Source: Zygnema cylindricum
Taxonomy: Eukaryota; Streptophyta; Zygnematophyceae; Zygnematales; Zygnemataceae
Length of the DNA stretch: 33,177 nucleotides
Assembly: GCA_037447655.1 (NCBI GenBank)
Contig: JBBHKE010003405.1
Span: 1-33,177 of the forward strand
Reading direction: 5' to 3'
Shown here: positions 7,051-33,177 of the stretch, one piece after another
Numbering within the stretch: position 1 is the first letter of the stretch
Layout: each line of letters starts with the position of its first letter
Position numbers and translations under genes: made by a program
The notes under the pieces: generated by a model
The model's database searches: none
The model's input: the letters and a program-made list of their open reading frames with translations, nothing else
What the model was told of the DNA's origin: nothing

Positions 7051-7056
7051 CATTGT

Positions 7057-7470
7057 GCCAGCCGTCTGGCGGTCTGTACACGACGGTTGGCAATGTTAGA
7101 TTACCCAGCCGTACGACGGTCTGCACACCGACGGTTGGCAATGTTAGATTAAGCCATTCGTACGGCGGTTTGCACACCGACGGGTGGCAATGTTACGTTA
7201 CGCCAACCGTACGGTGGTCTGCACATCGACGGTTGGCAATGTTAGATTACGCCAACCGTACGGCGGTCTGCACACTGACGGGTGGCAATGTTAGGTTTCA
7301 CCAACCGTACGGCACTCTGGACACCGATGGTTGGCAATGTTAGATTATGCCAGCCGTACGGTGGTCTGCACACCGACAACTGGCAATGTAAGATTACGCC
7401 ATTCGTATGGCGGTACGGGCGGCACCGTTACATTGTGCCAGCGGTACGGCGGTCCGTACTGCCGACGGAC
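7057..7470. repeat. Minisatellite, 49-bp period, 7 copies plus degenerate tail
   Basis: Units begin at 7057, 7104, 7153, 7202, 7251, 7300 and 7349; the first is 47 bp and the rest exactly 49 bp. A degenerate eighth begins at 7398, and the tail merges into a unit of the 50-bp type (7437-7470). The consensus core (CCGTACGGCGGTCTGCACAC) is clearly related to the 50-bp array, so both descend from one unit. Because 49 is not a multiple of 3, the repetitive ORFs across it are a by-product of the period and not genes. Confidence 0.92.
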
Positions 7471-11076: not shown

Positions 11077-11307
11077 TTAACATGGGCCAGCGTTGCTAAC
11101 GCAAATCATGGGATTAGCATTTGCCCGGAGGGTTTTTAACGTCTTGGGTGTACATGCCGCTGTGTTGAGGGATTTATACGTATCCGGCTTTTTAAAGCAT
11201 TTTTTCAAATTTGCGCAATTGGCCGTTGGTACCAATCTGATAGCCTTTCGATCTGCGCTAGAGCAGCGTCCCATTATTGTTCCCAAATCTCCTTTTTCGA
11301 GGCAAAC
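11077..11307 (-). CDS. Terminal exon: LysM end and Cys-rich tail
   Basis: Begins in phase 0 with VCLEKGD, completing the last LysM, then a basic tail (CANLKKCFKK...CTPKTLKTL...MICVSNAGPC) and TAA. The tail is lysine- and cysteine-rich and matches no domain I know; it could be one more degenerate carbohydrate-binding or disulfide-stabilised segment. There is no GPI-type or transmembrane hydrophobic end, consistent with a soluble secreted protein. Confidence 0.85.
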   Translation of the reverse strand, partial: VCLEKGDLGTIMGRCSSADRKAIRLVPTANCANLKKCFKKPDTYKSLNTAACTPKTLKTLRANANPMICVSNAGPC

Positions 11308-12741
11308 CTGGTCACAAACAAAAATAATTTATTTCTGCTCACTAACGATGCACAAATGCATTGGTTGTGCTGAAATATTTTGGGACAGGAGAATGAAGAA
11401 GGCCAGATTTCATATCACTGCAAAACGACCCACCTTTTTCCAACAATATGCGTAATAACAAGTGTTTTGAGTACATACCTCTTCATTATAACCTGACACA
11501 GTGGTGACGTAACTGTCGATGCGTGAACAATATATTCCCACATTGAGGGTGTAAAACTTCATGACATTCTCGAGCTTGTCGACATCGGAATCCATAAGAT
11601 TTGCAATAATTGAATTGCATGTATCTTCTGGTTTTACCTCATAGGATTTTACGCACGGCAGGGGGTATGGAAGATCGCCTCGCTGGATGCACACCTGAAA
11701 TCAAAAACAGTCTATTGAACAAGAAAGGCAACTTATGTCAACGATTATCATATTTTTCAACACTAAAACTTGTAGGTGTGCTTCGTCTAGTATTCAGCGT
11801 AAAATTTCCCAAACCTGCTGGAAAGGTTGAAGCTTATAGCAGTCGAGGTCTGGATTCGGTGAATTGGGTCCAGAAAGAGCTGTTATATTAAACAATATTT
11901 GGATTGAATCACAACTGTCGTCCTGCAAAACAGAGAAAGTAGTCCACAATTACTTGTTTCGCAAAAATATATGAATCTGATGAAGGAAGACGACTGTCCA
12001 GGAAATAAACAGACACATACGGTAAGCAATAATGTTCAACCGCAAACAAAGAACAGATTGGACATTGCTCATATACGAGTAAAACAGTTCTGGTTTTAAA
12101 CGGTTACCATAACCATGTAATGGGGCGACTAACCTCCATCACAGTATAGGGAAGAGAGCAGTTGCGATAAGCTGTTACGTCGACAATTGTGTTCGACAGC
12201 AGCGGGACGCTGCAATCAAGATTCTGCAAAAAAAGGAAAAATCATTGTGTCATCAGTTCATAAAAAGTTGTTTCTGGATGTGAGTGTTTATTTAACTAGT
12301 GTTAAATCAGGGGTTATCAGTGTATTTAGCTGCGTCACTCATACGCTAAACACTAATTACGTGGTAACGCGTATTTAACACTAGGGATGGAAGTAAATGC
12401 ACCGAAAGTATAACTTTCTAGGCAAATCAGTCTGTTTTGCGCCTTGTCATATCTCTGCCGCTATTTCCACAAAAATTCAAACTTTTGTGACATAATAGAA
12501 GACATCCCGAAGTACGTGGCCAAACGTTCAGATTTTCTTTGCCAAAAAACGAGTTATAGCCTGTCAAGTAAGATAAAAAAATGATCAACCCAAACTAAAG
12601 TTCTGGTTTATAGATACGGGTATATGATACGGAAGAGTTTGAATTTTGGCAGGTAGAAATATACACAAGTTGAGAGCCAGCAAAAAGAGCACGGCATTCC
12701 GAGATATCTCGAGCTGTAAAGTCATATCTCGAGCTGTAAAG

Positions 12742-12782
<41 letters not shown>

Positions 12783-15700
12783 ATGTAGACATACCTATAT
12801 TTTGCACGTTTGAAAATTCCATGTGCATAATAAGTATTCAACAATATCAAAACCACCAATGAAAAAAAAAACAAGGTTTAATACACAACCAAGAGAAAAG
12901 AAAAATCTGATCGGGAATGTAAAACGGGTTTGGTGAATTTTTGAAAAGGTGTCATATATCACAAATTGACCGGTCACAAAAGAGATTCTGGCCGTTAGGA
13001 AATAATTAAAATTTATTCGGAGATACCAGATTTTTTACAGGAATAAAGAGGACATAATTAGTGTCTCAGAGCAAAAAGGAAAACAAAAAATATCAAGTAT
13101 TGTGAAGTTATGAAGATTCTAAGTTACGGAAAACATAAAAAAGTATATTTAGCATGTTTTCAACATTTTGTGTTTGGTCAATCTCAACAATCTACTACCG
13201 ACATGGTTCTGTAGGTAGGCTAGCGCAGACAAATAGGGCCAAGTATGCCCCTTGAAGGGCGCTACATCGCCTTATTGTCTTGTTGGCGATCTAGTTGTTG
13301 ATGGAGTATATTACATAAAATTAAATTCTCCATGAACAGGTTTAAAAGAGAATTTTCAATAGAACATAAGGATCATATGTCACAAAATGGTGGAAAGTCT
13401 TGCTACCAGATTTTGATTTGTAAAGTCGACTTTGGAAATTCCGTAGGCGTTACGAATTGCATCACAAGTCACTTTTCCACTCTCTGGAACCGTGTAGCTG
13501 TTCTGCCTGTCTCCGAGGATAAGGGCTGCAAGATGGTGGGCAACGGTTCGGTTATCCATACAAAAGATTCCTGAAGAAGAACTATTCACCTTTACAACAT
13601 TTGAAAATAGTTCCGAAACTTAAGAACTCTAGAGCATTTAGCTAACAAAGAACCGGTATCTTTATTAATTTAATAGTATATGGAAACGTGCCTGTGAGTT
13701 GAGGTTGCAACTTTATCACTCACCAGGCACACAAGTAAGCACGTCGTCACTATCGTTGGGAGAATAACCCAAAGGACAAACACAAAGATAAGTTCCCGGA
13801 TAAAGTACAGAATTAACGCAAATACCCACGCCACATGGGTTTTTGGATCCAAAAGTACACGGACTAGCTGCAAGTTCACAACCCCAGTTACCCCATATCA
13901 GCTAAAGAGGTTGATGAACTATTTCTAGGACTTTCTTAAATGCAGTACAGATTTAGGACTCGATCATTATGTCAACCGTACCAGCAATACCGTAAAGCCC
14001 ACATACAAATTATTTCTTTAAAGTACAATGACTACAACCTTTCACCAGAATCCACTGTTCTTGAAAAATGACTGATATCCATGATTCATTGGCCCACAAA
14101 GAAACTGAGAATCTCAGCTCAGTACACATCTTTACACACTCTGAATTTCTATTTGCTATAATCAAGTTGACTCAAGAATATTAGCGTGACCTCAGTTAGC
14201 CATAAAAGTACTTTAACACTAGTGGGCTTTTGCAAGGAGCTAAAAGGTATTGAAAATGGATCGGACAAGAAGTAACGGAGCTTTTACTCCATAAATTACA
14301 AGATGTTTTTTAACATGAGTCTTTAAAGTATGCATTAACGGTCTTGTTACTTAAGTTAACTACGCTATGGTCATGTTACGTAGCTTCTGTAACATAGAGA
14401 TCTTTATATCATCGACTATTTAATTGATGCATGTCCTTCGACAATTTGCCCATTTAGCTAGAGATCTCCAAAACTAAGCATTTAAAACCAAAACATGCTA
14501 CTAACGTTGTAAAGTGAATTCTGCAGATAAATGCCTTTTTTATTTACATTACGTTCCCAAGAATACATAAGTTTTGAGATATTTCAGCTCTGCTGTATAT
14601 TACTCTATTAGTTGTGCAATAGGTTTCATGGATAACTGATTTCAAGCTTCTTGGGATTACACGGATTTGAACATATGCCGGTTCAAGTTCAGGTTATACA
14701 ATCAAACAAAGTGTGGTCCATTTCCTAGTAAACTGTGATCCTTCTATGGTTGTGCTGTGTGTTTCATGGATCAGGAAAAACCTGGAGCACAAGTCTGGCT
14801 GCCATCCGTGTTGGTGACGGCGACAAAGTCATCGCGACATTTGCATAGATTGGTGGTGCCTGACGGAGTACACACTCCGTTGCCGCATGGATTCATGACA
14901 CCCGGTCCATATGCAGCATCGAGCTTTTTCTTGGCAAAGTTGTTGAGGTTGCAAGGATCCACTGCAAGGATGAAATACATGGCATAGAAAACATGATACT
15001 TTCATGCTTGAGACCGTCGTGAAGGTGATTTAAATTGAACAGCCAGATTTTGTGGTATACATTACCCACTAGAAGGTATTTTGCACAATTCGATTATCGT
15101 TTTCTTTTCTGAATATAAGCTACCAAATAATATTGTCAACGAGATTTCATAAATAGAAATGATATATTTTAGGAGAACAACAACAGTTTGGATAGGTCGA
15201 GTTTTGTTAATGCTGATAAAATATAAGGAAACTCAAAATCTGATGTAATCTTGATTTAATATGATTTGATTGTGGTCCTTGTTATCAAGGGTGACAAACA
15301 ACTACCCACGTCCGATGCCATGTATTGCACATATATATTAGAATAACATCAACGGTCAAAGGTTACTTTTTGGTCAAAGACAATAAGCATCAATTGACGG
15401 TATTCCACAGTAGTCCCTGTCTATTTCTCTCAATCAACGTCCAACATGTCAATGACCAACACTTCTATATCCATGTCGGTGAATTTTCCAGCCAGTACTA
15501 GTAAACCTGACACCAATACCTGACTATCAAAAACAGCCGTTTCCAAAATATATATTTTTTTACATTCAACAAAAAAAAGGTCGGATCGGGCAAGTAAAAT
15601 GGGTTTGTTAATTTAAAAAAAAAGCGTCAATCACTGGTCATAGGAGAGATTTTGGTAATTAGGCACAAACTTATCATGTCAAAAACATGATTATGAATAA

Positions 15701-18700
15701 ATGCTAAGGACAAAAATAAATGCAAAGGGCAAAAATACTGACTTAGCGCAAAATAAAAAGAAGAAAATGTCGAGTATTGCTGAAGTGAAGGTGCTTCAAC
15801 GATACGAAAACATAAAAAATGATTTTTCCTACATTTTATGTGTTAAAAGTTTCCAGCAGTTTACCCTCTCCATCTCTCTACCAGGTTTCCCCTTTTTTCC
15901 CCTCTTGAATATTTACCCCTCCCTCTCCCTCTCCCTCTCCCTCTCCCTCTCCCTCTCCGTCTCCCTCTCCCTTTCCCTCTCCCTCCTATCCCTCTCTTTC
16001 TCCCTCTCCGTTTTTCCATCCCTCTCCCCCTCCCTCTCAGTTTTTTCCGCCCTCTCCTCACCCCCCACCGTCTCTTTCTCAGTTTTCCCTCTTTTTCCCT
16101 CTTTTTCCCCACTCTCGCCCTCTACGTGTGCCCTCCCTCCCACTCCCCCTCCCTCTCTCTCTCTCTCCCCCCCCCCTCCCAAGTTTTCTATCCTTCTCAG
16201 TCCCTCCCCTCTCCATTTCGGTTTTCCCCGCCCTTTCACTACCCCTTTCCGTTTCTCTTAATTTTCCTCTTTTTGCCCTCGCCCTACCGGTTTTTCTCCC
16301 TCGCACACTCCCTCTCTCTCACATTTTTTCCGCCCTCTCCTTCTCCCTCGCCATCTAGACTTCCGTCCTATCTCTGCTTTCCCTCTTTCACCGTCTTCCT
16401 CATCCTCTCGTTTCCCCTCCCTCTCCCACTTCATCTCCCTCACCCTCTCTCTCTTCCTCTCAAGTTTTCTATGCTTCACTGTCCTTTTTCTCTCCCTTTC
16501 GGTTTTTTCGGCCCTCCCCCCATACCTTTCCGTCTCTCTTTCAGGTTTCCTTTCTTTGTCCTTGCCCTCACGGTTTCCGCTCCCTCTCACACTCCATCTC
16601 CCTCTCATCCCTTCCCGCCCTCTCCCCCTCCGTCTCCCCCTCCCTCTCCATCTCCATTTCCGTATCTCCCTCGGGTTTTCCCCTTTCCCCGTCTGCCTTA
16701 TCCTCTCAGTTTTCCCCTCCTCTCTCAGTTTCTACTCCTTTCCATCTTTCTCCTAGTCTCACGCTCTCTCACCCTCCCCATCCATCTCCATTTCCGTCTC
16801 TTTCGAATTTTCCCTCTTTGTCTATGTCTCTCTCCCTCTCCGGCTCCCTCTCCCTTGCCCTTTCGATTTCCTCTCCTCTCCCACTCCCTCTCACTTTCTC
16901 TTTCCCTCGCCCGCTCGGTTTCCCCATCCATCTCCGCCCTCCTCTCTCTAATTTATTTCCCGCCCTCTCCCCTTCCCCCTGCCCCTCTTTCTCCATCTAT
17001 TCATCTCGCTCGATTTTTCCGTCACTCTCCCTCTCCTTTACCCTGTAAGTTTCCCTTCCCTCCCATTGCCCCACCCTTTCCCTCCATTTCTCGGCTTTCC
17101 CCTGCCTATCCCTTACCACCTCCGTCTTCTCTTTCCTCAATTTTGCCCTCTCACGTTCCTTCTCCAACTCATAGAGAGATGGAGAGAGGAGAGAGAGGGA
17201 GAGAGGGAGAGAGAGAGGGAGAGAGGAGAGAAGGGGAGAGGAAAAAAGAGACAAGTTGGATGTTTGGTCTGGAAGCGACGCCACGCATCCTTTCACGATA
17301 AGAACGCAAAGAGACAACAGAGCACACAATGCGCAGCCACTTACAAGCGGAAGAAATAAATCACAAACATTCACGTATCCCATGTACCAAGGTATTAATA
17401 GAATATACACATATTAAGCCGAGCTTTTTCTCCATTCTCATTCTAACAATAGATCTCACTTACTCACTTCTCTTACCTGAGTTATTCAATGACTCACTCC
17501 TTTTAACTGATCGTAACTCATCACTTCTGTACAAGGAAGCTTTACAGCCGGAACATTCTCCACAAAGACGAAAGGACAGGTATTCACCGAACAGTAACAA
17601 ACATGGCAGACATACAACGCCAATGTAGACACTTCTGTACCGAAATGAAACATGCGCTTGACAAACAGCATAGCACCACGTTCTATGTACTAAAAAACAC
17701 GTAGACTGCACGAAACAAGATGAGACCTAAATCTACGCACTGAAGCTACCAATACATACTGATGCAAACCCACCCGATACGCCAGTTCTCACAATGTTCC
17801 TAAAATTTCCTCTCTGATACGCCAGTTCTCACAATGTTCCTAAAATTCCCTCTCTCATTGTGGGAATCCTTAACACTCACAACAACCCTACTTAGGCCTT
17901 CCTTTTGCAAACATTTCATGCATTGTAAACTTCGTCAACTATTCTACAGCTTGCTTCCTTCAACTGTAGGCACATGGCTAAATTCTAACTCCTAAGCACT
18001 CACAAGATCCCTACAAAATGCCATCGAATCCGGATATGTTTTATAAGTTTATGAAACACAAGATTCCGAACTAAAGCCATAAAACTCATATTATCCAAAC
18101 AAAATTTCATACAACCAACTGTAATACCGATGCTACGTTGCTAGTATCTAGCCTCGTTAGAACTCAACGCCACTAATGGCTAGCGAAGGGAACTCCTCCA
18201 AATTGTCGCCCAACAGAAAATGGAAGCAAAATCAGACGTAGAATTTCAAAATTCAAAGTCATCGCCTCACTCCGAGCCACAAAACCTGTAACACTCCAAC
18301 ATCACATTCGACAGAAATGCTAAACCTATGCTCATGGTACCAGCCAAAAAACAAAAGGTTTGTTTAACAACCACCAAATTATTCCTTTTTGGGGCCTGAT
18401 AGTATCGGCTTGCAATCGAAATTGTTGCCGAAATCTCCAACCTCGCCCGATGGTAAGGTAAGTGAATAAACCAATTGCCTCCCTCTACGAGACGTAGGGT
18501 GTGTCTACGTTCTCAACCTTTTTGGATTGGGCTTTCGAGTCCAAAGGCGTGGAAAGTAGTGTCACGTTCGTTGTAGAAGTTCGCGGTAACACCTCCTCAG
18601 AGTACTATTCTTAAATTATTTTTACATTCCTCAAATCATCGCGAGTCACCTCAATCCCCAAAATTAATTCCGTTGCAACCATATGTTAACTTTAAATGCG

Positions 18701-21700
18701 TAATAAGGTACTTCAATTTCAAAAGAAAGCTGCTGAAGCGGCCCCATGAAGAAGAATTGGTTCTCTTCACCTTCAGCGAAAGGCACTTTAGCTTGAGGCC
18801 AAATTATGTTGGGCTTTTGCGAAATTGCGCCCACGTTCCCGTTTAACCAGAAGAATCGTGGCTTAAACAACGTTTTCCCGTAACCCTCGAAAAAAAGTTC
18901 ATGTTCACCTTTTCCTCGAGGTCAACATTCAATATTGTTGTCTCGACATCCATCTCGCCAATGTGTTTTTTGTTGGCCACCACTAAGGCCAGCATCCATA
19001 CCGATTTTTTTTTCTTTTTCTTGTCAATCTGTGATTTTCCAAATTGGATCTCAACCAATGTTCAAAACTCATTAAGATGGTTATCCGAACTAGTGTTACC
19101 GCTGAACCTACCCTGTCCGATGGGGTTTGTCGGAAATGACTCCTTCTACTGAGCACCTCTAAAACTGAAGGCTTTCTCATTGGGCTCACGGTACGACATT
19201 TCGGAAGAAGGCGGATCTTTTGAAGGCTCTAGTGTAGTCTTCCGACCAATAAATGGCAAAGGCGTACTTTTCTTCTTCCTTTCGTATAGTTACGTCACTC
19301 AACCACAAACTGGAGAAGTATCCTACTGCAATACCAATTTATAGGATCGCAAATAGACAATAGAGCACACGTATTGTGCAGCCACATACAAGCGAAAATA
19401 ATAATTACCAAACATTCACACGTCACATGCACCAAGGTATTGACCAAACATACATGCACTAAGTCGAGCTTTTTCTCCTTTCTCATTCTTACGAAAAATC
19501 TCAGTTACTCACTTCCCTTAACTGTTTTTAGCTCGTGTTTTAACTCATAACTTAACGCACAAAGCAGCGTCACAGTCGAAACACTCTCCACTAACACAAA
19601 AGGACACCATTCATCGAGCACCAACAACAAGACCAACAAGCAATGCCACAGTAACGAAATAAAACTTGCGCTGGACTAAAAGCATAGTACCACGTCCTAC
19701 GAATGAAATAACATCTACACCCCATGAAAAAAACGATACAATAAAAACGCACTGAACCGTCCATTACTTACTAGCGCTAACTCGGCCTATACGCGGATTT
19801 GCACAATATTCCCAACAATTTACTAGTGTATCGCGAAGAGAGATTTTTTTCGTGCGATTACGTTACAATTTGTTATTGGTTTGTGTTTTTGGGTGTCGCA
19901 CGCCACGCGTTTGTTTTTTCGCACCAAGGAAGAAAGCTACAACGACCTTGTGTTGTTTTCTGGTCGGTAAAATTAAATCTTGTGGGTCCAATTTAAACGT
20001 TAGTGTGAACAATGCTTTGGTGTTCGAAATCCACTCTTTTTGAAATCGAACGACAAAAGTTTGCGCAAAAATATGGTGTTTTTTAAACAACAGCATAAAT
20101 TTGTCACTTATAGACATGCATCCTAAAAGGAAATTCCTGCATGGGTTCTGAGAAAAAAGGAAGTTTACAATGCAAAAAATAGTAATAAAAATAAAATAAG
20201 AAAATAAAAAGTGAAAAAATTATGTTGTGGAAAGGTTATGTCAATGACCATGTGAAAAGAAATCTTACTTGGCAACTTCACAATTGGTATAAGTGCTGGA
20301 ATGGTATTTATTCCGCAAATACCGGGCCCTCCAATAATTTTTAATCGCATATATCCTTTGTCGCCCCAATTCGGGCCCCAAGAGTTTCGGATGAGCCAAT
20401 ATGGCGGTGTGTTTGTCAAATCATAGCCAACAACGACGACGGCGTGATCCACTCCATTAGAAAAGCATTCTTCATCAGAAAACACCCCCTATAGAAAACC
20501 AAAAAAGCACTTACTAGAAAATCGTCAGTTTCTGTCATTTGTTAGTATCGTATACATTGGAGTATCCTAAGGGTTCGGCACTATTGGGACGTTTCGGCTC
20601 CATGAAGCAACAGAATGTGACACATAGAATATGCGTCTAATCATACACGTGAGTGTTTGCATTCCAAGGTACCATGTGAAGATTTCAAAACATTTCTCTC
20701 TTTTCTGCACTTTTTCAAAATAAAATATCATCCATATGACTGAAAATCCTTCCAGTCGTTTGAAACCCCTCACAAGCCCTTTGCTTTTTTGTGAAACAAA
20801 GGATAAAACAGTCAAATTAGACTTTAGATTGTGCTCGAACACAATTGTACGTGAAAATAGAAAGACATTTACTAAATCATAAACTCTTAAGGTACTGGTT
20901 TGTCAAAAATTCACCATTTTGGGATCATAGTTGAGGAAACTTGTTCCACTTGCTTCTATGGCGACTATGGCTGTTTGTTGTTGGACAGCCAAAAGCAATC
21001 CCAGCCATCCACGCAGCTGGACTCTCTCAAAAGATGAAATCATCGGATTAATGCTGACCTGAAAATACACCCATTTTTGTAGTTATTTACCAGAATGGAA
21101 CCATAAACCACAAAGATGTGATAATAAAATGCAATATCTGCTGGTGTTTGTAAAAAATAGCAAGCTGCACGTTGTCAGAGGCCAGCATATGTATGCTCAC
21201 ATTTTTTAACATTTGAATAGTTCCCAAAAAAAAAACAAAAAAAAAACAAAAAAAACAAAAAACGTCCCTGCTTTTGTGGGACTTCGTTCCTTGCCCGAAC
21301 AAACATGTGGAGCAAAAAAAATACCTGCCCTCCTGGACAAGAACCTGGGAGATAACTGGAGTTCAACATGAGAGGATTATTAGCAGCATAGTCGAGAGCC
21401 TTAGCCGGCCAGCCACCAACGGTGCAGTCACGAGTCAAACAGTCAAAAATCTGGTTTTCTGATATGACAGGAACGTCTGAATCTCCCGCATTTGTGATGT
21501 AATAAGCACTCTCAATCGCTGAAATTGATGCGAAGATCCAACAAATATCTGAAAGTGCCATAAACAAGACGGAGAAAAAAAATTGTCAATATAGAGTGAA
21601 AAATGTGGAATTGAACAGAGTCAAGTAGTTGAATTGGCGACAAGTTGAAAACACTGCATTCTATAACTTCAAAGAGTAAAACAAGAAGCATCGAATTATT

Positions 21701-24700
21701 TCTGAAATTTCATGTCTCTCAGTTTCCTCCTTCCAATAAAACGCATATGATCTTTTACCTACAAATCGGACCTTGATGTCATTTTCTTCATAAGTGCGAG
21801 CAACAACAAGTAAATATCTGGTCTCACTTTTGTCATTCTCGCTTTCACGTGCCTCAATGACCTCAAACATCTATTTTCATACAACTGGTGTTTTACTTAC
21901 TGCAATTTTTTTGATCCTTGATGGCTGTCACTGCTCGTCGTTTCATCCAATTCCAGTTTGTTGCGACGAGCCAAGATGCCTTGTTGTCTTCATCCGGAGT
22001 TAGGTATCCCGAGCTTGTGTAGCGGAAATACCTGTTCAGCTTTGTATATTTGAACTCGCCGAGGCTTGTAAGTCCAAGTCCACGTCCCTCTGCAAGAGTT
22101 GAATATTTTTTTGTTAAACGGTGCCGTCCCAGGTATAGTAAGCGACAATACGACTCCGATCTCTTGTTATATATTGTAGATTACATACATCGTTAATCCC
22201 CTCTCCATTCTCATGAAATGGCAACGAATTAGATGAACTGGTGTTCTCCTTTTTTCCTAGTAGTTATACTGATTCCGCCTAGTCATTAACATGTACACCA
22301 CGTCCCTCTGCAACTGTTGGATAAATATTTTGTTAAAAGGTGTTGTCCCCCGGATAGCAAAAGACAGAAGGATTCTGATCTCTTCTTATATAATATAGAT
22401 TACATAAATTGTTGACCCTCTCTCCACTCTGTGATATGACACCGAATAAGATAAAATTGGAACTCTCCCCTTCTACTAGCTAAACTAAGTCTCTCAAACC
22501 ATTGACATGTAAGTTTTGAAACATATTTGACATTGTTAAACATTTATGGACCACTTTGTGACGTTGAAATCATAGAAATATTCATCCTCTTTTCCGTGTT
22601 ACTGAGGAGTTGCAAATCCGTTGTTGATTGCATGTTCGTTTCAAGGGCTTTGCTGTTAAAAAGAGTTAATTCTCTGTAAAACGTATACTTTTAAAATTTG
22701 GTGTCACCTTGCTTAATGAAGGTATAATGCTCATCGCCATTAGTGACAAAAACAAGTGTTCAATTGTGATTTATTCTAGACAAATATTATTCAATACCAC
22801 TTTTTAAGCAATTAGACTACAACAGCTAAGTCACTCTCCACTAAATTAGCAGTTCCTTTTAATACGAATAATTCCTTGACACTTATAAAGGCTGGAAGAG
22901 TATTGGTAAGGGGCATCGTATGGAGTGCTACTTACCAAAGGTACAAGTGTAACTATTTATACTCGTTGTATAACCCTCATCGCATGTACATGGGACATCT
23001 AACGCCGTACAATAACCATGTCCTCCACATACGCCCGTGGCCTGTGTTGCATTGCAAAATCTCTCACATAGCGAAACATCTTTTCCTATTTTTTCGTCAC
23101 CAGTTGAGATGCTATTGTCAAAACAGTTATTCGTAACAAAGGCAGAAGTTGGATTGCCATTCACAACAACACTTGCTCCGGATAAATAGTTGTTACTGAC
23201 GTCAACATTCAAGTCGGTCAGAATCTGAAGTTCCAAGATGAAATTCCCCGTGAGGAAATTGTTTTTCAAATTCCTGTAACCAAAACAGGGATTAATCTAC
23301 TGTTGGTGACATATGTCAATTGTATACTTTTTTCAGCCTTGAAGTCTGAGAGAATTATTTTAAAATAAGAACAGTGTAAGTGAACAAACAACATAGGTAT
23401 ACTCGAGGAAAAGCATCAAGAAATCTCCAAAACTTAAGGCTAATTTCTGATATGTTAAGGCACTTGTCACTTATGCACTGGCAAAAAGTTGATAGAACGA
23501 AAACTGGAAATTGAAATTTAAGGAGAATTCTCTAGTTTTGCTAGAGATCTTAAACTTTTATGAATAAAAAGTCATAACACAAACATTAACAAGAAATCTC
23601 TTGTGACATTTGTGATTGAAGCTGCAAAAGTATTGAAATTCTAGTGAACAAAAATTTTCATCTGCCAATAGAAATGAACAAATATCACAACTCACATATC
23701 CTGGAGTTTTTTCAGGCTGCCAAAACTTGTAGGAATGGTGCCCATTAAATTGTTATTGAACAAATGTCTGGAACAACAGGGGAACATTGAGTGCATGGGA
23801 GTGCACAAAATCAAAATTTGACTGTAAACTTCTGTAAAAGTTGACTTCAGTAATTTTCAGCGTCTTGAGTTGAGAAACGCAATGCAGTCATTGATAATTG
23901 CATTTTTGCTTCATACTCATTTCTCATTTGCGGCCTCGCTTTTATCTTTGATTTATGGAAATAGAAGAATTAACTTACATAATTCGCAACTTGATTAAAC
24001 TGCCTATATTTAGAGGTAAAGTCCCATTGAAGTTGTTCTGGTCTAAGTACCTGAAAAATCCATTTGTAAAAGTCAACTCAGCTTAGAAACTGAAAACCAC
24101 TCGTCAAATTAACACGTGGATGAATCTCTTGCAAAGATGTAAACATTATTTTTTTTACTTACTGTTTGGCGACCTTGAGTGTTATTAATATATTCACAAG
24201 GTAGCAATACAATAAAAAATGCTTATATAGCGAAAAAAAATACTAGGAAACTGGCAGAACTTACAGCTCTTGGAGCTTCGGTAAAGTCATCATGACAGAG
24301 GGAATAGATCCGGTCAGCGAGTTTCTGGAGAGGCGCCTGTCCAAAAAAAATGATATAAAATAACTTGCAATTAGTAATTAGATACGGGTTATGTGCCTAT
24401 GTCACCACCACAAGAGGTGGCTAGCGTTCCCTACTAACTTTCATAAAGTAAATTGGCCCATATTGATTTCCCTTTCAAAAGAAATCAACGTTCACAAAGC
24501 GGAAATAAATCTACAAATGATGCGGCGAGTTGTTCAGATTGTACAGTTCAGATTTAGGCATCCCAATACATGTATCCGACAGTAAGCTCCAAATTGCTAT
24601 TGTCACATGCATTTCGTAACTCAAAAATTCAGTACTAGGTCAACACTACTGTAAGCTCCTTAGCGGCAATAAGTATCAACTTACAATATTTGGAGACTGG

Positions 24701-27700
24701 TCAAGCTTTGAACTGATGACGGAATGCCTCCTGATAACTGATTGTTCAAAAGATTTCTGTCATAAACCAAAAATAGCGTACAGTATTTCAAACATTCGCT
24801 GTTTCATGGAGTTATAACGATGAATGAAATATCTGAAATATTTAAAATGATACTGTACACCATCGGAACTATGCTAGCTTCAAGTCTGTTTTTGGTTGTT
24901 TTGACCCCACAGAAAATTTAGTATGCACCACGCTGATTTGCCTTTTCTGCAAAAATGAAGTATCCAAAGCTGTAAGAAATGATAAATATTAGTCTCGCAT
25001 TGCACGTGAGAAGAGGGAAATTATGGGTAGGAAGGATAGCGCAAATGAGGAGCTCTTAATATCAGTAGAATCACAAGTTAGTCTATGGGACTCACACTTA
25101 GAAAACAAAATCTCATGCATCCATCTCATGTTAAGATGGATTTTATGACAAAAAATCCGACGTGTGCAAGGACCATTCTCGACCAAAGGATATCTATAAA
25201 TTAGTCTTGAGCACTTGTTCCTCTCAAGTAGTCCAGAGCCCTCGAGTTACGATCTCTCGCGCCAGTTTGAGAGCCGTCAGAGAAAAATATCAACGGGAGT
25301 TATCATTAGGAAACCGTGATTGTCAAACTTACAATGATCTAAGGTTCCGCAAGTTTCCGAGGGACACGGGAATGGATCCAGTTAATTCACATGAAGATAA
25401 ATCCCTGTCAAAAAGACAAATTCAGTCATGAAAGGTGAAACGGCAGAATAATTCCATAAAAACAGCGAAATTTCGACTCCCTTGGAAGCCAAATTTGTTG
25501 TTACCACGGACAACTGTATATTGTTGCAATTTAACCAAAAAAAAGAAAACTCTATCAAAGCATCCTATCGACCAGAACACATATATAATGCTTTCCATGG
25601 TATGCAAGCTGATTGTTTCACTTACAGTTCTTGGAGAGAATCCAAACGCGTTATCGCTTCCGAAATGGTCCCTCCACGCACAGTAGCCGATAATAATCTA
25701 CATCATGAAATAAGAACTGTAAACTACTCGAGTGTGCATAGAAGCTCAAGTTGTTATCAAAAACAAAGAGATTTTTTTTGTGTAAAGACTACATATGTAA
25801 GAGAAATGTGAGTGGAGTATGATAAATTGTTTGGTAATTTGTGAATCCATAATATGATCAAACGGAGATTCAAAATTGCTTTTCTTCTCGCCACAATCTC
25901 TGCTATTGCTCGTAATACAAAAAAAAAGTCGTGTATTTGCACATGTCCATTGATTTGGCAAGCATAGACTGTTTGGGTGTCTACCTTTTCGCTTTTTGTG
26001 ATCCGTTTAGAAAGCCTCAGATCCACGATTTTTTTTTAAATTCTTATAACATTAAATATTTTGAATTCTTATCACATTAAAGGCTGAAAGGCTCTATTTC
26101 TGAAATAATTGAAAGGGTGATGTCCTTCCTTGATTTACAAAAACTGAGATTTTTTTTTTTTTTTTTTTCTTCAGTCAAGGTATTCTGGCCTTTTTGGCGT
26201 TTTTAGCACTTGTTGACCTTACATATTGCTAGGAGCAGCATTTCCAAAGTCCATTGATCCATGAATTTAGTGATGGCCCTTTGGAACTACCACATGACAT
26301 GAATATTGAAACTTATGCACAAACCTATGAGATATAAAAAAATTATAGAAATTGTATATATCTCTATATATTACACATATACAAGCACATAGTAGTGGAT
26401 GCCCATAAAACAAAAAATTTTAAGTATTGTTTACGACAGAATCAATCAAGTACATGAAACGCGTGGAATTCTGTCATAGTGAGGAACACATGTTGACGGT
26501 TTATAATACCAGAGCTAGTCATATAATGTTGAGGCTTGAAGACCTACAATTTGATTACGACCTTGTTGTCGCACACCACACCGTACCATTTGCATACTTC
26601 CGAGTTCGATCCCCATGCTGAAAGGACGCCTCCACGGTCATTCAACATTGATTTGAACTCCAGCAAGATGCCTCCTGGGCTCATATCAACAAACGATACA
26701 CACTGGAATATCAACTGCTGGAACTCTTGTGCCACCACACTTTGAGATCAATATGGCCATTCAAGTCTTACAATAGCTGGTTGCAAAACATGTACTGTCT
26801 GATTTCTAAGACAAACCAGTGCTAAAAGAGAAAAACTATCTCCAAAAGCATTTAAATCACCAGGTTAACAGAACTTGCAGAGATATAAAAGATGGATTAC
26901 TGTATTCTAATAAAAGATCAGAATCTGCACCTTAATCACGTTACAATTTCTTACTTGTTATTGAGTGACATGGGAAAAACTGAGGCAAAAGTTATAGAAA
27001 CCAAAAAACGTTTGCATCGTGCATTGAAGGAAAAAACGACATGACCTAATGATCGGTTTTTTGATGCACAAGAAAATTTTTGAAATGCACTTCCAATTCA
27101 AAGAAAAATACATCGTAAAATAGACAGGTTTTTACATCACTGATCGTTTTAAGTGATCAACTCTGGACCAGTTGATGATCTCGAAGTAGGTCAACTTTTG
27201 AATGGCCGAGGATTGAAAAACATATGGCCGATTATCTATTTTTTTTCACATGTCTTCAAAAGACGTATAGAACCTAAACACAGATTCCGCCTCCAAATAT
27301 AATTTTCGTTCAATACCGAGAGAAATCATTATACGGCGCCAACTAAAGACATGAAGGGCCAGGGGCCATAAAGATGGAGCAAAGCGGAGTTAAGGGTACA
27401 TAAAAGATGAAATTGAAGATAATAAGACAAAAGCACTAAGTGATCATTCCACCAAAAGACAAAGTTCACCAATAATGTGGAGAAAGACACACACGTATAC
27501 ACACAAAAATTTAAATATATGCGTATACACACATATGTGTGTGTATACAAATATTGTACATACATGCATGTATACATATTCATATATAGACAGAATTCGG
27601 CATAAATTAAAAAAAAGCAAAGACCTCTTCTTAAAAGAGGGGGAGATGGGCCTACAAAGGGAAAGATTTACCGTCAAGAAGGGGGAGAGGAACCAGGGGA

Positions 27701-30700
27701 GAGGCCAGTCGATCAGTCGAGGGATCAGACGTCAGATGCAGAATCAGATCAGGCGAGTGGGCAAAAAAGGGAGGCAGAAATCTGAAATCTTTTGGAATCG
27801 AGTCATCGTCGCTCAATCAAATAAGATCTCTAATGTGCTTTTATTAAAATGTTCGTCTGAAAGTCTCTCCAACTTAGTGAAGTTACAACTTTCTAAATTA
27901 ACAATGCTATATCTAGTCAATACAACATTTAATCCCAAATCTATAACATTTACCGTGGTTACTATTAGCCCAAAAAGAATCCACAATAGTCACAGTAGAT
28001 GGCTTTGTTAAATAAATAAACTTTTGGATTCAAAATGATGAAGCAAATTTCGCCCCCATTTTCTTTTGCTTTTGTATAATTCTGTCTTGTTTGTGACTAA
28101 TACACTATAAAAATACACATCCACACTAATTACTGTAAATGATCAAGTGAAATTTTTGGTTCTTTTTCCTTCCCTTTTACCTGGCCAAACACTTGAGAAC
28201 TTCCACGATCGGATTTGATGGACATCATTATATCCACCCGTGGCTGCGGTAAATCCAAAAAATGCTGACGTCACTTTTTGACACGTGATACAATCGGACG
28301 GTCGTAAGAGTTCGCAAAGGGGTCTTTTCAATTGAAAAAGGGCAGATGGTTTTACTGTTCCCAAACTTAAAGAAACTTCCCATATTTTTGAAATTCCGTT
28401 ATATTCGATCCAAGCGTTTATAATCGTATCAAAATTATCGAGTACACTTGCCACATTTGGGCCTATAGAATTTTCCTGAAATTTTTCTCGCATAACGACA
28501 TTTCTTTTCGCAATTTCTTCTCCATATGAATATGTGTCGAAGGCGATCGCCACACTTCCAACCATTGGAGTAGACGAGTATCCGTACCTGTCGACAAAAG
28601 CCGCGCAATAAGAGTCGCGCGATCGCAAAATTATACATAGAAACGTCACAATCACAGGAAAGTAAAGGAAACATCTCAATTGCGGGAAAGTGAGAGAAAC
28701 AAATCAACCAAAGTAAAGTATACAAAAACATCTCAATCACTGAAAAGATTGTTGACACATTTCATCAACTTTAGCTCACAAGCATTAACTCATAAGTGTA
28801 AAGTGTGGTATGTATTAAACTACACGTAAGTACGAAGCTAGTAAACTTTGTGTATAGTTCGAAGAACAATAGACACGCCTAAATATTCACGTTAAACTGA
28901 CGTATTTGGACGTGAATACTCTTGTCATGGAAAATTGGTTTTACTTCGTCACTTTAACTCTAAGAGGATAAGTTTTTTTGGTGTTGAATTTGAGATTACT
29001 ATAGTTTATAGTCAGACAAGCCATTCTTTTTAAAGGTGTGTAATCCCATCCGTCAAATTATCTTAAATGAGCTTCTTGAAAAATCTTATTTTTTAACCCC
29101 CTATTTTACGGCAAGATGTTAAAAACATTCCACAAAAACTTGCCAATGTGATTTATTTCCAATTCTGATTCGTTCGTATGCATTTCAACCACAAATTTAG
29201 CTTTTGTGATAGGAAAGTATTGTTTATTGGGATAGATTTTAGCCTAGTTTACTAGTTTAATTCATACGTTACTTTTTATTACACCAAATTTTCGACCTAT
29301 GAATTTTTGAGAATAGACAATAGCAGCACAATACACCGAACCGAATGCGTGCGACTGTATGAAAACTTCCGTCAAAATATATCTTAAGTGTTATGCTGTC
29401 GAGACGTTAAACGTTAGACAACCTGTCGCAAAATTCAAATGTTTTTGTCTCACTACCTTGTAATTCAGCATACACAATAGCATAACATATGCAATATGTT
29501 CCGGTAAACATTTCCCCTATGGATAAAATTAGCATTTGACTGAATGTCATGCAAACAAACTGTAAATTCGATAAACTTCCAAACCTAAAATCAACCTTAA
29601 AATTGACTTTCATTAAATTAAGAAAAAATAACATCACATGTAAGGGTTCTTTTCTATAATTTTCCTCAAAAATTTCATGTTGCACACGAAAAGACTTTTA
29701 TCGTACGGAGAAAGTGCGAAATCCAATGTATAACATACAATATCTTAAAATTTAGAATGTAATTCAGATTGGCATCTTCCCTTTTTCGACCCACTGCCAG
29801 GTCATGCCAGCTCATCTTCAAACTCAAACGCAAATCACCTCAAGAGTGGGTTTTAGGTAGGGTACCAAGTGACCAACAAAAGGAAAACTTCCTATCACGT
29901 GTCACACGATTGTGAATATTTTTGCACGAGGGAGAGTACACTCTAATTTTTTTCCTGACTGCCAAGCACATGTAAGGAAAATATTTTATTCGTGGGTCCT
30001 TTGAAAAGTTTACGTGGTTGTCGCCTTTCCCCCTCCCTCTCCCACTACCGCTCCCCTCTCCCTCTTCTGACAATGAAACGGGACAACATTGGTTTAAAAT
30101 GAAAAAGTTCTAAGAAATATTTTTTTATTATCTTTTCTTTTAATAATAGTTTGAGAGAAAAGACAAAAAAAAATCAGAAAACTATGGCGTAAAGTTCCAA
30201 AATTAGTGACGTCAACACTATGAAAGGTAAGCATGATGAACAATGTCAACAAAACCTAGACATCTACAATGTCACAAAAAAGTAGACGAGTACAACGTCA
30301 TAAAAAAACGATTTCTACAGTATTAAATTGTCACAAAGTTATATAGCATCTACAAATGTCACTACTTTAAGTGACGACTTTTGTTCTTGGACATTGAAAC
30401 AACCAATAAACTAGTATGAAGAATCTTCACTAAAAAACAAAGTTTCGTCGCTAAATAATGGTTACATGGGCACACAGCCTAAACCAATTTCCACACGACC
30501 GTACATACCCCAATCGTCCTCCGAGTCCTTCTAATGCTGCCAAGTTCCCATTGGACGCGAAAAGGACAAAAGCGAGACCGTCTGCGTGAATGCAATCTGA
30601 ACAGTTTTTTCCCATTCTAAAAGAAAACGAAGTTTGGAAGGAGGCTTCCTGACATCCACTGGCGACATCCCGTAAAACGATTATTGGAGTCGATCTAAAA

Positions 30701-31020
30701 AATTGACCACTTTTCCAGTCTTCGGCAGGGGTTAAACGGATCCAAGGGGGAGTAAGAACTGCGTCTTTTTGAAGAATTAAATTTGTCGTATTTGTAAAAC
30801 TCGGATAGGAAAAGGACAACGGCGTAGAAACGACTGAAAAAAAAAGGATCAACAAAAGGACCAAATTAAACAAAAACAAAAAGGGTAAATGAAAAGACAA
30901 AGAAAAAGGAACAAATTCAACAAGGGAACAAAAAAAAAATCCTATCTGAAGAAATTCTCAAAATTGGTGCTCTCCCTCTCTATCTCTCTCCGCCCCCTTC
31001 TCTCCTTCCCCATTTACCAT
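11077..31020 (-). CDS. Lectin-LRR-EGF-papain peptidase-EGF-LysM protein (spliced model)
   Basis: Hand-spliced model, exons in transcription order: 31020-31018 (ATG, tentative), 30945-30509, 28587-28181, 26674-26548, 25697-25626, 25404-25333, 24756-24685, 24336-24265, 24050-23979, 23767-23696, 23273-22936, 22089-21901, 21548-21325, 21058-20915, 20488-20269, 14961-14782, 13867-13724, 13570-13407, 12223-12134, 11922-11815, 11694-11479, 11307-11077. All introns are GT-AG, all phases match, and no stop occurs before TAA at 11077-11079. The product is about 1,217 residues. Likely secreted, it combines a glycan-binding lectin, an LRR ectodomain, EGF modules, a C1A protease and chitin/peptidoglycan-type LysM domains. 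From 26674 to 11077 the model is strong. The lectin join and the start are inferred; two adjacent genes remain possible. No transmembrane or kinase segment is seen, so it is not a receptor kinase as modelled. Confidence 0.72.
11479..13570 (-). CDS. Four exons encoding LysM modules
   Basis: Exons 13570-13407, 12223-12134, 11922-11815 and 11694-11479; the three junctions between them are phase 0. LysM-type signatures appear about three times: SYTVPESGKVTCDAI...YGI...NLDCS; LPYTVMEDDSCDSIQILFNI...NPDLDC; and SYEVKPEDTCNSI...LNVGIYCS, each followed by a G/QxVC-type end (QQVCIQRGD, NEEVCLEKGD). This is the Y-V-x-x-G-D-T-C...N-P-G-x-x-C pattern of eukaryotic LysM modules, which bind N-acetylglucosamine polymers. 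Introns cut inside modules, before DDSC and VC. One donor (CTG|GTAGCA, 13406) is weak, but module continuity supports it. No LysM receptor kinase is attached. Confidence 0.8.
12296..12384. repeat. MITE-like hairpin, nested inverted repeats
   Basis: CTAGTGTTAAAT (12296-12307) and its exact reverse complement ATTTAACACTAG (12373-12384) enclose a second inverted pair (GTGTATTTAGC.. / ..GCTAAACAC). The element lies in an intron between LysM exons. TTAGTGTTA-type ends also occur at 7679-7697 and 8247-8263, so it may belong to a small foldback family. Confidence 0.55.
12704..12777. repeat. 20-bp tandem duplication and (TA)n microsatellite
   Basis: ATATCTCGAGCTGTAAAGTC is repeated exactly at 12704-12723 and 12724-12743, followed by an AT dinucleotide run to about 12777. 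It is intronic. Confidence 0.9.
13724..13867 (-). CDS. Exon: EGF-like module 3
   Basis: A symmetric phase 1-1 exon of 144 nt with six Cys: SPC, NPCGVGIC, LCVCPLGY and LTC, then GTGCCTG|GTGAGT. The NPCG-x-G-(V/I)-C core repeats that of the previous exon, so the two modules are duplicates. Confidence 0.9.
14782..14961 (-). CDS. Exon: EGF-like module 2
   Basis: Enters and leaves in phase 1 (TTGCAG|TG; CCAG|GTTTTT). Six Cys in EGF order: DPC, NPCGNGVC, CKC and QTC. Reading past the donor would stop at once (GFS then TGA), so the donor is needed to continue. It follows the peptidase module directly in the mRNA. Confidence 0.88.
15860..17160 (+). repeat. 1.3-kb polypyrimidine (CCCTCT)-rich tract
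   Basis: Almost pure C/T for 1.3 kb, with a regular (CTCCCT)n core at about 15917-15957 and a short TTTTCC spacer that recurs. In the transcript of the minus-strand gene this is a long purine run. The many long ORFs on both strands, up to 391 codons (16126-17301), are Pro/Leu/Ser or Arg/Glu/Gly low-complexity artefacts and not genes. Confidence 0.95.
17172..17245 (+). repeat. GA-rich block, inverted against the CT tract
   Basis: GAGAGGGAGAGAGAGAG-type sequence abuts the right end of the CT-rich tract. The two are complementary and could fold into a long hairpin in single-stranded DNA or intron RNA. Confidence 0.85.
17297..17808 (-). repeat. 3' LTR of the copia element
   Basis: Shares with the right LTR the blocks GAGCACAC...GCAGCCAC, ACCAAGGTATT, CGAGCTTTTTCTCC and many others in the same order. 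Its far end has a 40-bp tandem duplication (17776-17815 and 17816-17855), so the exact border is blurred. Confidence 0.8.
18400..19060 (-). pseudogene. Copia reverse transcriptase fragment
   Basis: On the minus strand near 19010-18895 the frame reads LALVVANK...GEMDVETTILNVDLEEKV, matching the copia RT motif around MDVKTAFLNGDLEEEV. The catalytic YVDD part is not seen. Further on, near 18575-18470, STPLDS and PYVS*REAIGLFTYL match the conserved stretch between RT and RNase H, interrupted by a stop. The sequence between the two is too decayed to follow. Confidence 0.75.
19343..19817 (-). repeat. 5' LTR of the copia element
   Basis: The right-hand copy of the direct repeat; its minus-strand start is TGTTGGGAATATTG (19817 downwards). 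Offset from the left copy is about 2.03 kb. Confidence 0.8.
20269..22089 (-). CDS. Papain-like (C1A) cysteine peptidase domain, four exons
   Basis: Exons 22089-21901, 21548-21325, 21058-20915 and 20488-20269 join in phases 1, 0 and 0. In the 1,217-residue model the active site is complete: oxyanion Gln641 in KDQ (codon 21913-21911), nucleophile Cys647 in NICWIF (21543-21541), His782 in VDHAVVVVGY (20446-20444) and Asn802 in IRNSWG (20386-20384). The DCTVGGW stretch matches the family's GCxGG motif, and the end reads GICGIN. The mature-type start is WNWMKRRAVTAIKDQ. No I29 inhibitor propeptide (ERFNIN/GNFD pattern) is found upstream; the linker to the EGF module is too short for one. It is therefore predicted active but unusually regulated. 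The module enters and leaves in phase 1. Confidence 0.93.
22080..22515. repeat. 218-bp tandem duplication of a 3' splice site
   Basis: Copies 22080-22297 and 22298-about 22515 are diverged but collinear (CCACGTCCCTCTGCAA at both starts, CATGTA near both ends). The duplicated unit includes the acceptor and first bases of the first peptidase exon, so the intron holds a second CAG|AGGGACGTGG upstream in the transcript. Using it would hit TAG after eight codons. Confidence 0.8.
22936..23273 (-). CDS. Exon: last LRRs and EGF-like module
   Basis: Starts in phase 2 with LKNNFLTGNF and VDVSNNYLSG, the closing repeats, then a cap with Cys (TNNCFDN). The last ~45 codons form an EGF-like module: CERFC, GVCGGHGYC, CTCDEGY and a final C. 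The exon leaves in phase 1 at TTTG|GTAAGT. The next acceptor in phase is the peptidase exon at 22089, so the EGF module runs straight into the protease with a linker of about 60 residues. Confidence 0.9.
23696..25697 (-). CDS. Six 72-nt exons, one leucine-rich repeat each
   Basis: Exons 25697-25626, 25404-25333, 24756-24685, 24336-24265, 24050-23979 and 23767-23696 are each exactly 72 nt (24 codons), all in phase 2. All but the first carry a clear plant-specific LRR: for example LSSCELTGSIPVSLGNLRNL, LLNNQLSGGIPSSV, LSRNSLTGSIP, LDQNNFNGTLP, LFNNNLMGTIP. The first is degenerate (RGGTISEAITRL). Donors are GTAAGT in five exons and GTGAGT in the last. Plant-type LRRs form a curved solenoid that binds proteins or small ligands. 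The one-repeat-per-exon layout is known from plant LRR receptor families and implies growth by exon duplication. Confidence 0.93.
26548..26674 (-). CDS. Exon: LRR N-terminal cap
   Basis: The sequence GGILLEFKSML...VLSAWG..EVCKWYGVVC is a standard plant LRRNT_2 cap (LLxFKxxL, LxxW, Cx(W)xGVxC). Its donor is TT|GTAGGT in phase 2, as for all following LRR exons. Two acceptors are possible. CCCAG|GAGGC (26674, phase 1) fits the lectin exon exactly; CCAG|TGTG (26702, phase 0) would need another upstream exon. No signal peptide precedes the cap in this region, which favours continuity with the lectin leader. Confidence 0.85.
26675..28142. other. Long intron or intergenic gap between lectin and LRR exons
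   Basis: If lectin and LRR belong to one gene this is an intron. It contains an alternating purine-pyrimidine (CA/TA) stretch at about 27485-27590 with a near-palindrome GTATACACACATATG... (27523-27548). No signal-peptide exon, promoter or poly(A) signal could be recognised, although the LRR cap would need a leader if the genes were separate. Confidence 0.4.
28181..28587 (-). CDS. Exon: second half of legume-lectin domain
   Basis: The acceptor CGACAG|GTACGG joins in phase 2 to the previous exon. Conserved lectin strands are VAIAFDTY, VASVLDN, AWIEYNG, WEVSLSL and the C-terminal FFGFTAATGGYNDVHQIRSW. In typical legume lectins the first strand reads VEFDT, whose Glu binds a metal ion, and a later strand reads HIGIDVN; here these are AFDT and NVASVLDN, so the Ca/Mn site is probably lost and sugar binding may be altered or absent. 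The exon can end at the donor CCAG|GTAAAA (28180, phase 1), or run on to a TGA at 28143-28145 and end a separate short lectin gene. Confidence 0.8.
28800..29770. other. Intronic/unannotated AT-rich stretch
   Basis: It lies inside the first long intron of the lectin part. No coding or structured feature is seen; the minus-strand ORF 29407-29685 matches nothing I recognise. Confidence 0.4.
29775..30140. repeat. Dispersed 370-bp repeat, copy 1
   Basis: Diverged but collinear with 32725-33110. Shared anchors in order: CCCTTTTTCGACCC, AAATCACCTC, TACC...CACACGA.TGTGAA, CATGTA.GGAAAA, GGGTCCT, TCGCC, GACAA, AAAATGAAA. No ORF is conserved between the copies. It is likely a non-autonomous transposon family or old segmental duplicate. 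Confidence 0.75.
30160..30420. repeat. Degenerate short repeats around CTACAATGTCACAAA
   Basis: Words like CTACAATGTCACAAA, GTACAACGTCATAAA and CTACAAATGTCACT recur at roughly 35-45-bp spacing. This is weak, irregular repetition with no assigned role. Confidence 0.35.
30509..30945 (-). CDS. Exon: hydrophobic leader plus first half of legume-lectin domain
   Basis: A very hydrophobic run (LFNLVLLLILFFSVVSTP) is followed by lectin sequence: LSFSYPSF, NLILQKDAVL, the strand ending SFQTSFSF, then HADGLAFVLF and GGRLG. The Asp of ADGLAF and the Gly of GGRLG are conserved sugar-site positions in the family. The donor GTATGT follows at 30508 in phase 2. No in-frame ATG exists within the open frame; a TTG at 30900 is the first start-like codon. 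A possible fix is an ATG at 31020-31018 followed at once by a 72-nt GT-AG intron (31017-30946) that joins in phase 0. Otherwise the true first exon lies upstream, or the start has mutated. Confidence 0.75.
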
Positions 31021-31373
31021 CTACTCAACCCAAAGACCTCAACAAAATTAAAAACCATCTAGCTTTCCCTGTGACTCTCCCTTCCTTTCGATCTTTTGGA
31101 TTCCTTGATTTCCCCGGATCCTGATTCTTGTCTCATCTGTTTGCCGGAACGTCTTCATTTTTTCCTCTTCCCACTTCCCTTGTCCCCCTTCCCTCGTCTC
31201 TCACCTCGTGACAGCTGGCAGGTGAAAACAAAGGAAACGGAAAAAAGTAGGAAAGGGAATTTCCTTGCATTGTTGAGGTCAGGAAACGCCATTAAAATTG
31301 GCAATATCGTATGAATAGTATTGATTTTTAAATAGCAATAGTCATATGAATAAAAAAAAGGAAAACAAAAAAA

Positions 31374-31405
31374 GAGTTTCCTAAAAGAAAAAATTACTGA
31401 AGAGA
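31374..31405. repeat. Exact 32-bp direct repeat, copy 1
   Basis: GAGTTTCCTAAAAG...ACTGAAGAGA, identical over 32 bases to 32521-32552. Weaker similarity seems to continue for some bases after each copy. Confidence 0.9.
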
Positions 31406-31464
31406 TTAATTTTCCCAAGGAATGTCTCCGTATGTGGGAAAAGAAGTAAGCTTCGAAAAAAGTT

Positions 31465-32026: not shown

Positions 32027-32027
32027 C

Positions 32028-33110: not shown

Positions 33111-33177
33111 TTTTAGGTTTTTTTTTAATGGCAAGTCGAGTGAGAAAAGTAGAAAAAACGAAATCGGGAAACCATTG

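Follow-up and report, generated by a model that had tools for sequence, protein, structure and literature searches.

A predicted secreted papain-like protease of Zygnema cylindricum that probably combines lectin, LRR, EGF and LysM modules on a conserved chassis with exchangeable front ends

Does a single gene of a streptophyte alga join recognition modules, a papain-like protease and LysM domains in one protein, and if so, does that gene stand alone? The locus that raises the question lies on contig JBBHKE010003405.1 of Zygnema cylindricum (assembly GCA_037447655.1); the whole stretch analysed, called the window below, comprises 33177 bases with 39% GC and is eukaryotic in character. Its minus strand carries a gene (31292..11077) that probably encodes a secreted modular protease of 1208 residues, built from a signal peptide, a lectin, a leucine-rich repeat (LRR) cap with about eight LRRs, an EGF module, a C1A peptidase, two more EGFs and three LysMs. 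The part from the peptidase onward, C1A-EGF-EGF-LysM, appears to be a conserved chassis, and the modules ahead of it (the front end) appear to be exchangeable.

Exons were placed on the minus strand by combining reading frames, GT-AG sites and domain logic. The resulting model has 22 exons (E1 to E22) that stay open up to a stop codon ending at 11077; all 21 introns have GT-AG ends and the phases agree throughout. Most splice sites score well. The matrix used was derived from the model's remaining introns, which makes model and scores interdependent. The few weak sites are the acceptors of E4 (-0.7 bits) and E5 (-5.3, the weakest acceptor in the model) and the donors of E16 (3.2), E18 (1.2) and E20 (2.8). 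An alternative acceptor of E18 (exon start 13510), also in phase 1, scores -3.7 versus 7.9 for the chosen site and would drop 20 residues; in the related protein P0004 a similarly long gap lies at this point, and the shorter exon fits it better. An earlier reading made from sequence only had described at least 18 cleanly splicing exons and the order LRR-EGF-C1A-EGF-EGF-LysM in one protein. Both points are borne out by the 19 exons E4 to E22 (26674..11077), which splice with consistent phases and no stop, and the domain search that it had proposed, run with Pfam on the spliced 1208-residue protein, matched Peptidase_C1, LRR_8, LRRNT_2 and LysM, with EGF below the cut-off. The 19-exon part of its gene extent stands, and what it overlooked is the upstream lectin module and a provisional signal-peptide exon; a gene start at 26.7 kb was rejected, since the lectin exons lie upstream and join in frame. 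The whole locus is very probably one gene, as judged from these features of the DNA.

The peptidase is encoded by E12 to E15. Pfam and the alignment place the start of C1A with Gln632 in E12 (21901..22089), Pfam and matches to PDB sequences place Cys638 (codon 21541-21543) in E13 (21325..21548), PDB sequence matches cover E14 (20915..21058), and E15 (20269..20488), which ends in a phase-1 donor, contributes His773 and Asn793. On the spliced protein Peptidase_C1 (PF00112) is matched at 4.6e-38. In the PDB, 174 distinct sequences match the C1A part at E<=1e-3, and plant papains such as 1ppo (3.1e-32) head the best 60 listed. C1A peptidases have catalytic Gln, Cys, His and Asn motifs; all four residues are in place, and the papain-like catalytic site appears intact, as the first reading had it. 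Plant papains usually, though not universally, carry an N-terminal I29 inhibitor prodomain. The Pfam search of the spliced protein found none, and this candidate was rejected. The position of the usual prodomain is taken by LRR-EGF1 and a short, family-specific LNxYFRYxSxG segment in E12 (22089-21976, residues ~573-610), just before the C1A domain. The Phe of this segment is kept in 13/13 aligned rows; in two rows missed by the alignment's motif filter, the segment is by eye present in P0022 and absent in P0016. It is a candidate short propeptide. A predicted structure is at hand for the relative P0020 only (pLDDT 75.7, pTM 0.76), and papains are among the best 50 of its 434 PDB matches.

Upstream of the peptidase, E4 (26548..26674) encodes the LRR N-terminal cap (LRRNT_2, PF08263, 1.7e-9) and is followed by about eight LRRs (LRR_8, 1.3e-14). 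Six of these exons recognized by Pfam, E5 (25626..25697), E6 (25333..25404), E7 (24685..24756), E8 (24265..24336), E9 (23979..24050) and E10 (23696..23767), are each exactly 72 nt long and in phase 2; their DNA identity of 33-54% indicates that they are not fresh duplicates. The last LRRs share a single exon with EGF1, E11 (22936..23273), which has a phase-1 donor and whose EGF1 matches P0022 at 8e-8 and others too. On the other side of the peptidase, EGF2 (E16, 14782..14961) and EGF3 (E17, 13724..13867) each lie between phase-1 introns. EGF2 matches P0021 at 8e-23 and P0004, with which it is aligned, at 5e-13; EGF3 matches P0021 at 4e-17, and the Pfam match (PF00008) reaches 0.016 and 15.9 bits, below the cut-off of 21.5.

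The tail carries three LysMs. LysM1 starts in E18 (13407..13570), placed by the splice model, and ends in E19 (12134..12223), where LysM2 starts; LysM2 continues through E20 (11815..11922), phmmer segment mapping supporting both of the latter exons, and ends in E21 (11479..11694), which also holds LysM3 and the best PF01476 stretch (residues 1078-1099). E22 (11077..11307), joined in the same reading frame, adds a cysteine-containing C-terminal tail and the stop codon. On this protein alone the PF01476 match is marginal (2.1e-4, 21.6 bits against a cut-off of 20.9). Among 58 fetched proteins, denoted by P numbers, phmmer matches the LysM region to P0021 at 1e-33 and P0020 at 4e-29; the region is homologous to stronger LysMs of relatives, the LysM of P0014 reaching 3.9e-22 in Pfam. 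No 19-residue Kyte-Doolittle window exceeds 1.6 in the model, giving no transmembrane segment, and the Pfam search of the spliced protein gave no kinase match; an LRR receptor-like protein or kinase was rejected on these grounds.

The front of the protein is an L-type lectin domain (Lectin_legB, PF00139, 1.9e-24; residues 35-270, profile positions 2-236 of 250), whose first half lies in E2 (30509..30833) and second half in E3 (28181..28587). The two exons enter and leave in phase 1, which fits the LRR-cap exon across an intron of 1506 bp. Among the 58 proteins the best matches of this lectin are both lectins of P0004 (8e-29 and 6e-28, phmmer), with which it is aligned and which sit on the same chassis. 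Further upstream, E1 (31205..31292), with a phase-1 donor and good splice scores, supplies a start codon and signal peptide (MAFPDLNNARKFPFLLFSVSFVFTC...) and is the sole signal-peptide exon candidate in 30840-33177. We are confident that the lectin belongs to the LRR-protease gene.

The gene does not stand alone. A search with residues 560-1208 found 18 of 7759 candidates at E<=1e-3, and a three-row chassis profile found 43 of the 7996 candidates with the most shared words; segments of the Zygnema protein served as phmmer queries to locate the modules in the 58 fetched proteins. The organism-named proteins with most or all of the chassis are from Closterium, and P0022 is labelled jgi/Mesen1, which we take to be Mesotaenium endlicherianum. 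EukProt transcripts account for P0004, P0019 and P0026, and the source of P0020 and P0021 bears the mark lgn. Other named matches (insect, land plants, protists, a bacterium) cover the C1A part only, and the land-plant matches named in the profile search are ordinary papains. In P0004, an open reading frame (ORF) from a transcript assembly, and in P0020 and P0021, whose contigs slightly exceed their ORFs, C1A-EGF2-EGF3-LysM is read in a single frame.

The front ends on this chassis vary. An LRR-EGF front end is found, for example, in P0005 and P0022, and the domain order LRR-EGF-C1A-EGF-EGF-LysM, which had been thought unfamiliar in plants and algae, turns out to exist in Closterium (e.g. P0005) and in P0022. 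LRR and lectin occur together in the Closterium predictions P0006, P0007 and P0013 (the lectin of P0006 and P0007 from Pfam), P0004 reads lectin-lectin-C1A-EGF-EGF-LysM in one frame labelled complete, and P0020 has an EGF alone, preceded by what is by eye an apparent signal peptide. The ORF of P0004 indicates that the lectin module is a partner of the chassis. Among the fetched proteins a lectin-LRR-EGF front end was seen in the Zygnema gene only. These comparisons of protein sequences suggest that the gene belongs to a family and is not unique, with C1A-EGF-EGF-LysM as the conserved chassis and exchangeable front ends. Three proteins, P0001, P0002 and P0003 (all labelled partial), contain two chassis in tandem, either tandem genes fused in prediction or real double proteins.

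A tree on C1A-EGF-EGF (27 rows, 402 columns) pairs the Zygnema protein with the fragment P0021 (100/99) within a clade that also holds P0004, P0019 and P0020 (93/97). The known front ends in that clade, those of Zygnema, P0004 and P0020, all differ. The lectin-bearing type of Closterium (P0006, P0007, P0010, P0013, P0032) forms a separate branch (100/100), and P0014 and P0016 lie on long branches. Topology tests were run on 23 rows, leaving out P0014, P0016 and two fragments, with groups chosen after seeing the first tree and with P0010 and P0026 labelled LRR by eye, neither Pfam nor phmmer finding LRRs in either. On these terms a single clade of the LRR-bearing rows is rejected (p-AU 6.8e-9), which indicates more than one change of front end. 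A gain and a loss of a front end would look alike here, and many relatives are partial predictions.

Several observations weigh against this account. A single clade of the lectin-bearing rows is not rejected in the same tests (p-AU 0.059), the Zygnema protein and P0020 are flagged as long branches in the 23-row set, and the relatives are mostly gene predictions, many of which carry the label partial. The acceptor that joins lectin to LRR is mediocre, 24.9% of the strand's AGs scoring equally well. The signal peptide of E1 is below the transmembrane cut-off used, and a control count found 13 ATG-donor pairs of the E1 type (10 different ATGs) on the minus strand of the window, or ~0.4 per kb; because such candidates are common, E1 is provisional. 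The order lectin-LRR-EGF-C1A found no relative in a search with lectin plus LRR cap (residues 30-345 of a 572-aa query; 3 hits, none with C1A), whose length range of ~315-1001 aa made it unable to return P0004. Beside this, P0057 (697 aa, Candidatus Poribacteria) lists legume-lectin and LRR families, without C1A. The metal-site Glu of the lectin EFD motif and a His are needed for sugar binding. In the Zygnema lectin Ala and Asn replace them, and both are kept in 10/10 other aligned lectin domains; without them the module may bind protein or nothing. Among the relatives, the catalytic Cys is replaced by Ser in both C1A copies of P0003 and in P0032, and P0020 has Thr instead of Trp after the catalytic Cys; if some members have a dead site, this would point to a role in binding for part of the family. 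Taken together, the degenerate lectin metal site, the marginal LysM matches and the altered catalytic sites of relatives argue against a simple recognise-and-cut device.

With these reservations, a likely mode of action can be proposed. Given the predicted signal peptide and the missing transmembrane segment, the protein would be secreted into the wall or mucilage, where the LysM tail, by analogy with its family, may hold it on a GlcNAc-containing glycan. The first reading had proposed docking on chitin or other GlcNAc polymers through LysM, and on protein partners through the LRRs, which may apply. The LRR-EGF and lectin front end may select the target or control the enzyme, and the C1A domain, with its catalytic residues in place, would cut a nearby protein. 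Since an I29 prodomain is missing, latency must come from elsewhere; ligand binding or cleavage at the recognition module or at LNxYFRYxSxG could release activity. The candidate roles are surface defence, wall remodelling and mating. It is a serious possibility, a little short of an even chance, that the protein serves remodelling of the alga's own wall or mucilage, or mating, and not defence, with the LysMs bound to own glycans and the protease trimming wall glycoproteins. Closterium has many family members, and, according to PMC6362431, the M11 protease of Chlamydomonas acts on cell walls, both of which favour such a role; nothing specific stands against it, except that LRR and lectin modules suit non-self recognition equally well. 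The gene also suggests that the algal relatives of land plants have a family of secreted proteases whose recognition modules have been swapped.

How the front ends came to be exchanged is suggested by the introns. All six module-boundary introns (signal peptide|lectin, lectin|LRR cap, EGF1|C1A, C1A|EGF2, EGF2|EGF3 and EGF3|LysM) are in phase 1, and the other 15 comprise 8 in phase 2, 6 in phase 0 and 1 in phase 1. The excess at boundaries (6/6 versus 1/15) has a Fisher p of 1.3e-4, which becomes 3.9e-4 without the signal peptide|lectin intron and 1.6e-3 without the entire lectin part (4/4 versus 1/14). No intron marks the LRR|EGF1 boundary, and no phase-1 intron separates the LysM repeats. Modules flanked by phase-1 introns are of class 1-1, and the Zygnema gene has such modules; module movement may lie behind the varying front ends of relatives, compared at the protein level only. 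A 2021 review (PMC8001218) treats class 1-1 modules, in the passages at hand, as units of exon shuffling and asks why such shuffling is restricted to Metazoa and why it employs modules of this class. Brown-algal ROCO genes with LRR units on separate 72-bp phase-2 exons have been proposed as shuffled immune receptors (PMC11378527, in part), so that a claim of exon shuffling beyond animals is not new.

Exchange of the front end as a module at phase-1 introns is part of the explanation that we consider probable as a whole. The main alternative for the phase-1 pattern, to which we give some chance though we lean against it, is that it does not reflect shuffling: introns may have entered glycine-rich linkers in phase 1 and the fusions may have arisen by other recombination. 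The review itself (PMC8001218, same passages) gives other reasons, this bias included, for phase-1 introns to lie in linkers and near the ends of signal peptides, the LRR-EGF1 boundary is without an intron, and the seven phase-2 LRR introns may be one event, in which case 6/6 stands against 1/9 (p 0.0014, hand arithmetic). Against this, different front ends occur on the same chassis in relatives, as exchange at such introns predicts. Module exchange at phase-1 introns invites a bolder and rather unlikely proposal, namely that class 1-1 shuffling of the animal kind arose independently in the algal sisters of land plants, which used it to build a family of secreted, glycan-anchored proteases with interchangeable recognition modules. 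Their action would resemble that of the protease cascades in animal blood, whose members carry lectin and EGF modules, and the 72-nt LRR exons would permit in-frame variation of the recognition surface. Module-bounding phase-1 introns in an alga of the plant lineage make the claim of metazoan restriction directly testable in sequenced genomes, and the shuffled 72-bp LRR exons of brown algae, as far as the passages of PMC11378527 go, already fit poorly with an animal-only question.

The lectin could instead belong to a neighbour. We consider it improbable that the locus holds two genes, a short secreted lectin (E1-E3) and an LRR-EGF-C1A-EGF-EGF-LysM gene starting at ~26.7 kb. The 1506-bp intron with its mediocre acceptor and the failure to find lectin-LRR-EGF-C1A in relatives would fit such a pair, as would the lectin-free order in Closterium and P0022. 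However, the phase-1 donor of the lectin fits the LRRNT acceptor, and among the 58 proteins the lectin is closest to those of P0004, fused to the same chassis. Between 28180 and 26690 there is also no candidate for a signal-peptide exon; with ~0.6 expected at the control density, this is a weak argument against an LRR gene of its own. A split at the 5.3 kb C1A-EGF2 intron, with peptidase transcripts ending there and EGF2-EGF3-LysM as another gene, has next to nothing left in its favour: the long pyrimidine-rich repeats and two 170-nt copies (76%) are possibly an inserted element, but in P0004, P0020 and P0021 C1A, EGF2, EGF3 and LysM share one frame, and across the intron the splice sites are fair and the phases agree, so that the single gene first proposed is favoured over transcripts ending between peptidase and EGF2.

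That intron (14962-20268) contains a pyrimidine-rich tract at ~15.9-17.2 kb and two direct 170-nt copies (17310-17479 and 19355-19524), and its repeats are perhaps an old mobile element. Elsewhere in the contig, 2183-3988 on the plus strand holds a fragmented PIF1-like helicase (PF05970, 1.6e-60), with Pif1_2B in two parts at 2809-3336 and 3536-3988, presumably resembling a decayed Helitron. An AT-rich region at ~6350-7450 contains, by eye, short GC-rich repeats such as gtacggcggtctg, and an Rfam scan of the window gave 0 matches at gathering scores.

Among the open-licence papers listed in our searches we found no description of a modular lectin/LRR-C1A-EGF-EGF-LysM family, and the available parts of PMC10380794 and PMC11289646 hold nothing on this architecture. 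According to passages of PMC11096116, Zygnema genomes contain Lectin_legB in 26 architectures, the kinase combination being the one named; the present architecture may be included there without comment. The main text of that paper has 0 occurrences of LysM, papain and EGF and 7 of peptidase, of which none within 12 of 17 passages refers to a C1 peptidase. The brown-algal ROCO genes (PMC11378527, in part) share with the Zygnema gene only the 72-bp phase-2 LRR exon design and, unlike it, encode LRR-ROC-COR GTPases without a protease. Algal proteins in which peptidase C1A is joined to LysM are also on record (PMC6362431), and the sequence-only reading had mentioned LysM-containing cysteine proteases of green algae; in the passages at hand, the algal C1A-LysM proteins are described without an LRR or legume-lectin front end, and C1A-lectin combinations are reported as not retained in vascular plants.

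The closest systems are the relatives themselves. The LRR-EGF-C1A-EGF-EGF-LysM proteins of Closterium (P0005, P0009, P0012 and others) and P0022 share the chassis and an LRR front end, with EGF1 matched in P0005 and P0022; P0005, P0009, P0012 and P0022 are without a lectin domain and are 36-39% identical over the matched part. P0004 resembles the Zygnema gene in having lectin ahead of C1A-EGF-EGF-LysM in one ORF (41% identity), and differs in that its two lectins keep Glu and His and no LRR or EGF1 was found in it. Like the Zygnema gene, Closterium P0006, P0007 and P0013 unite LRR, lectin, C1A, EGFs and LysM in one protein, but there the LRR precedes the lectin, whereas in Zygnema the lectin precedes the LRR, and their C1A domains form the separate, fully supported branch.

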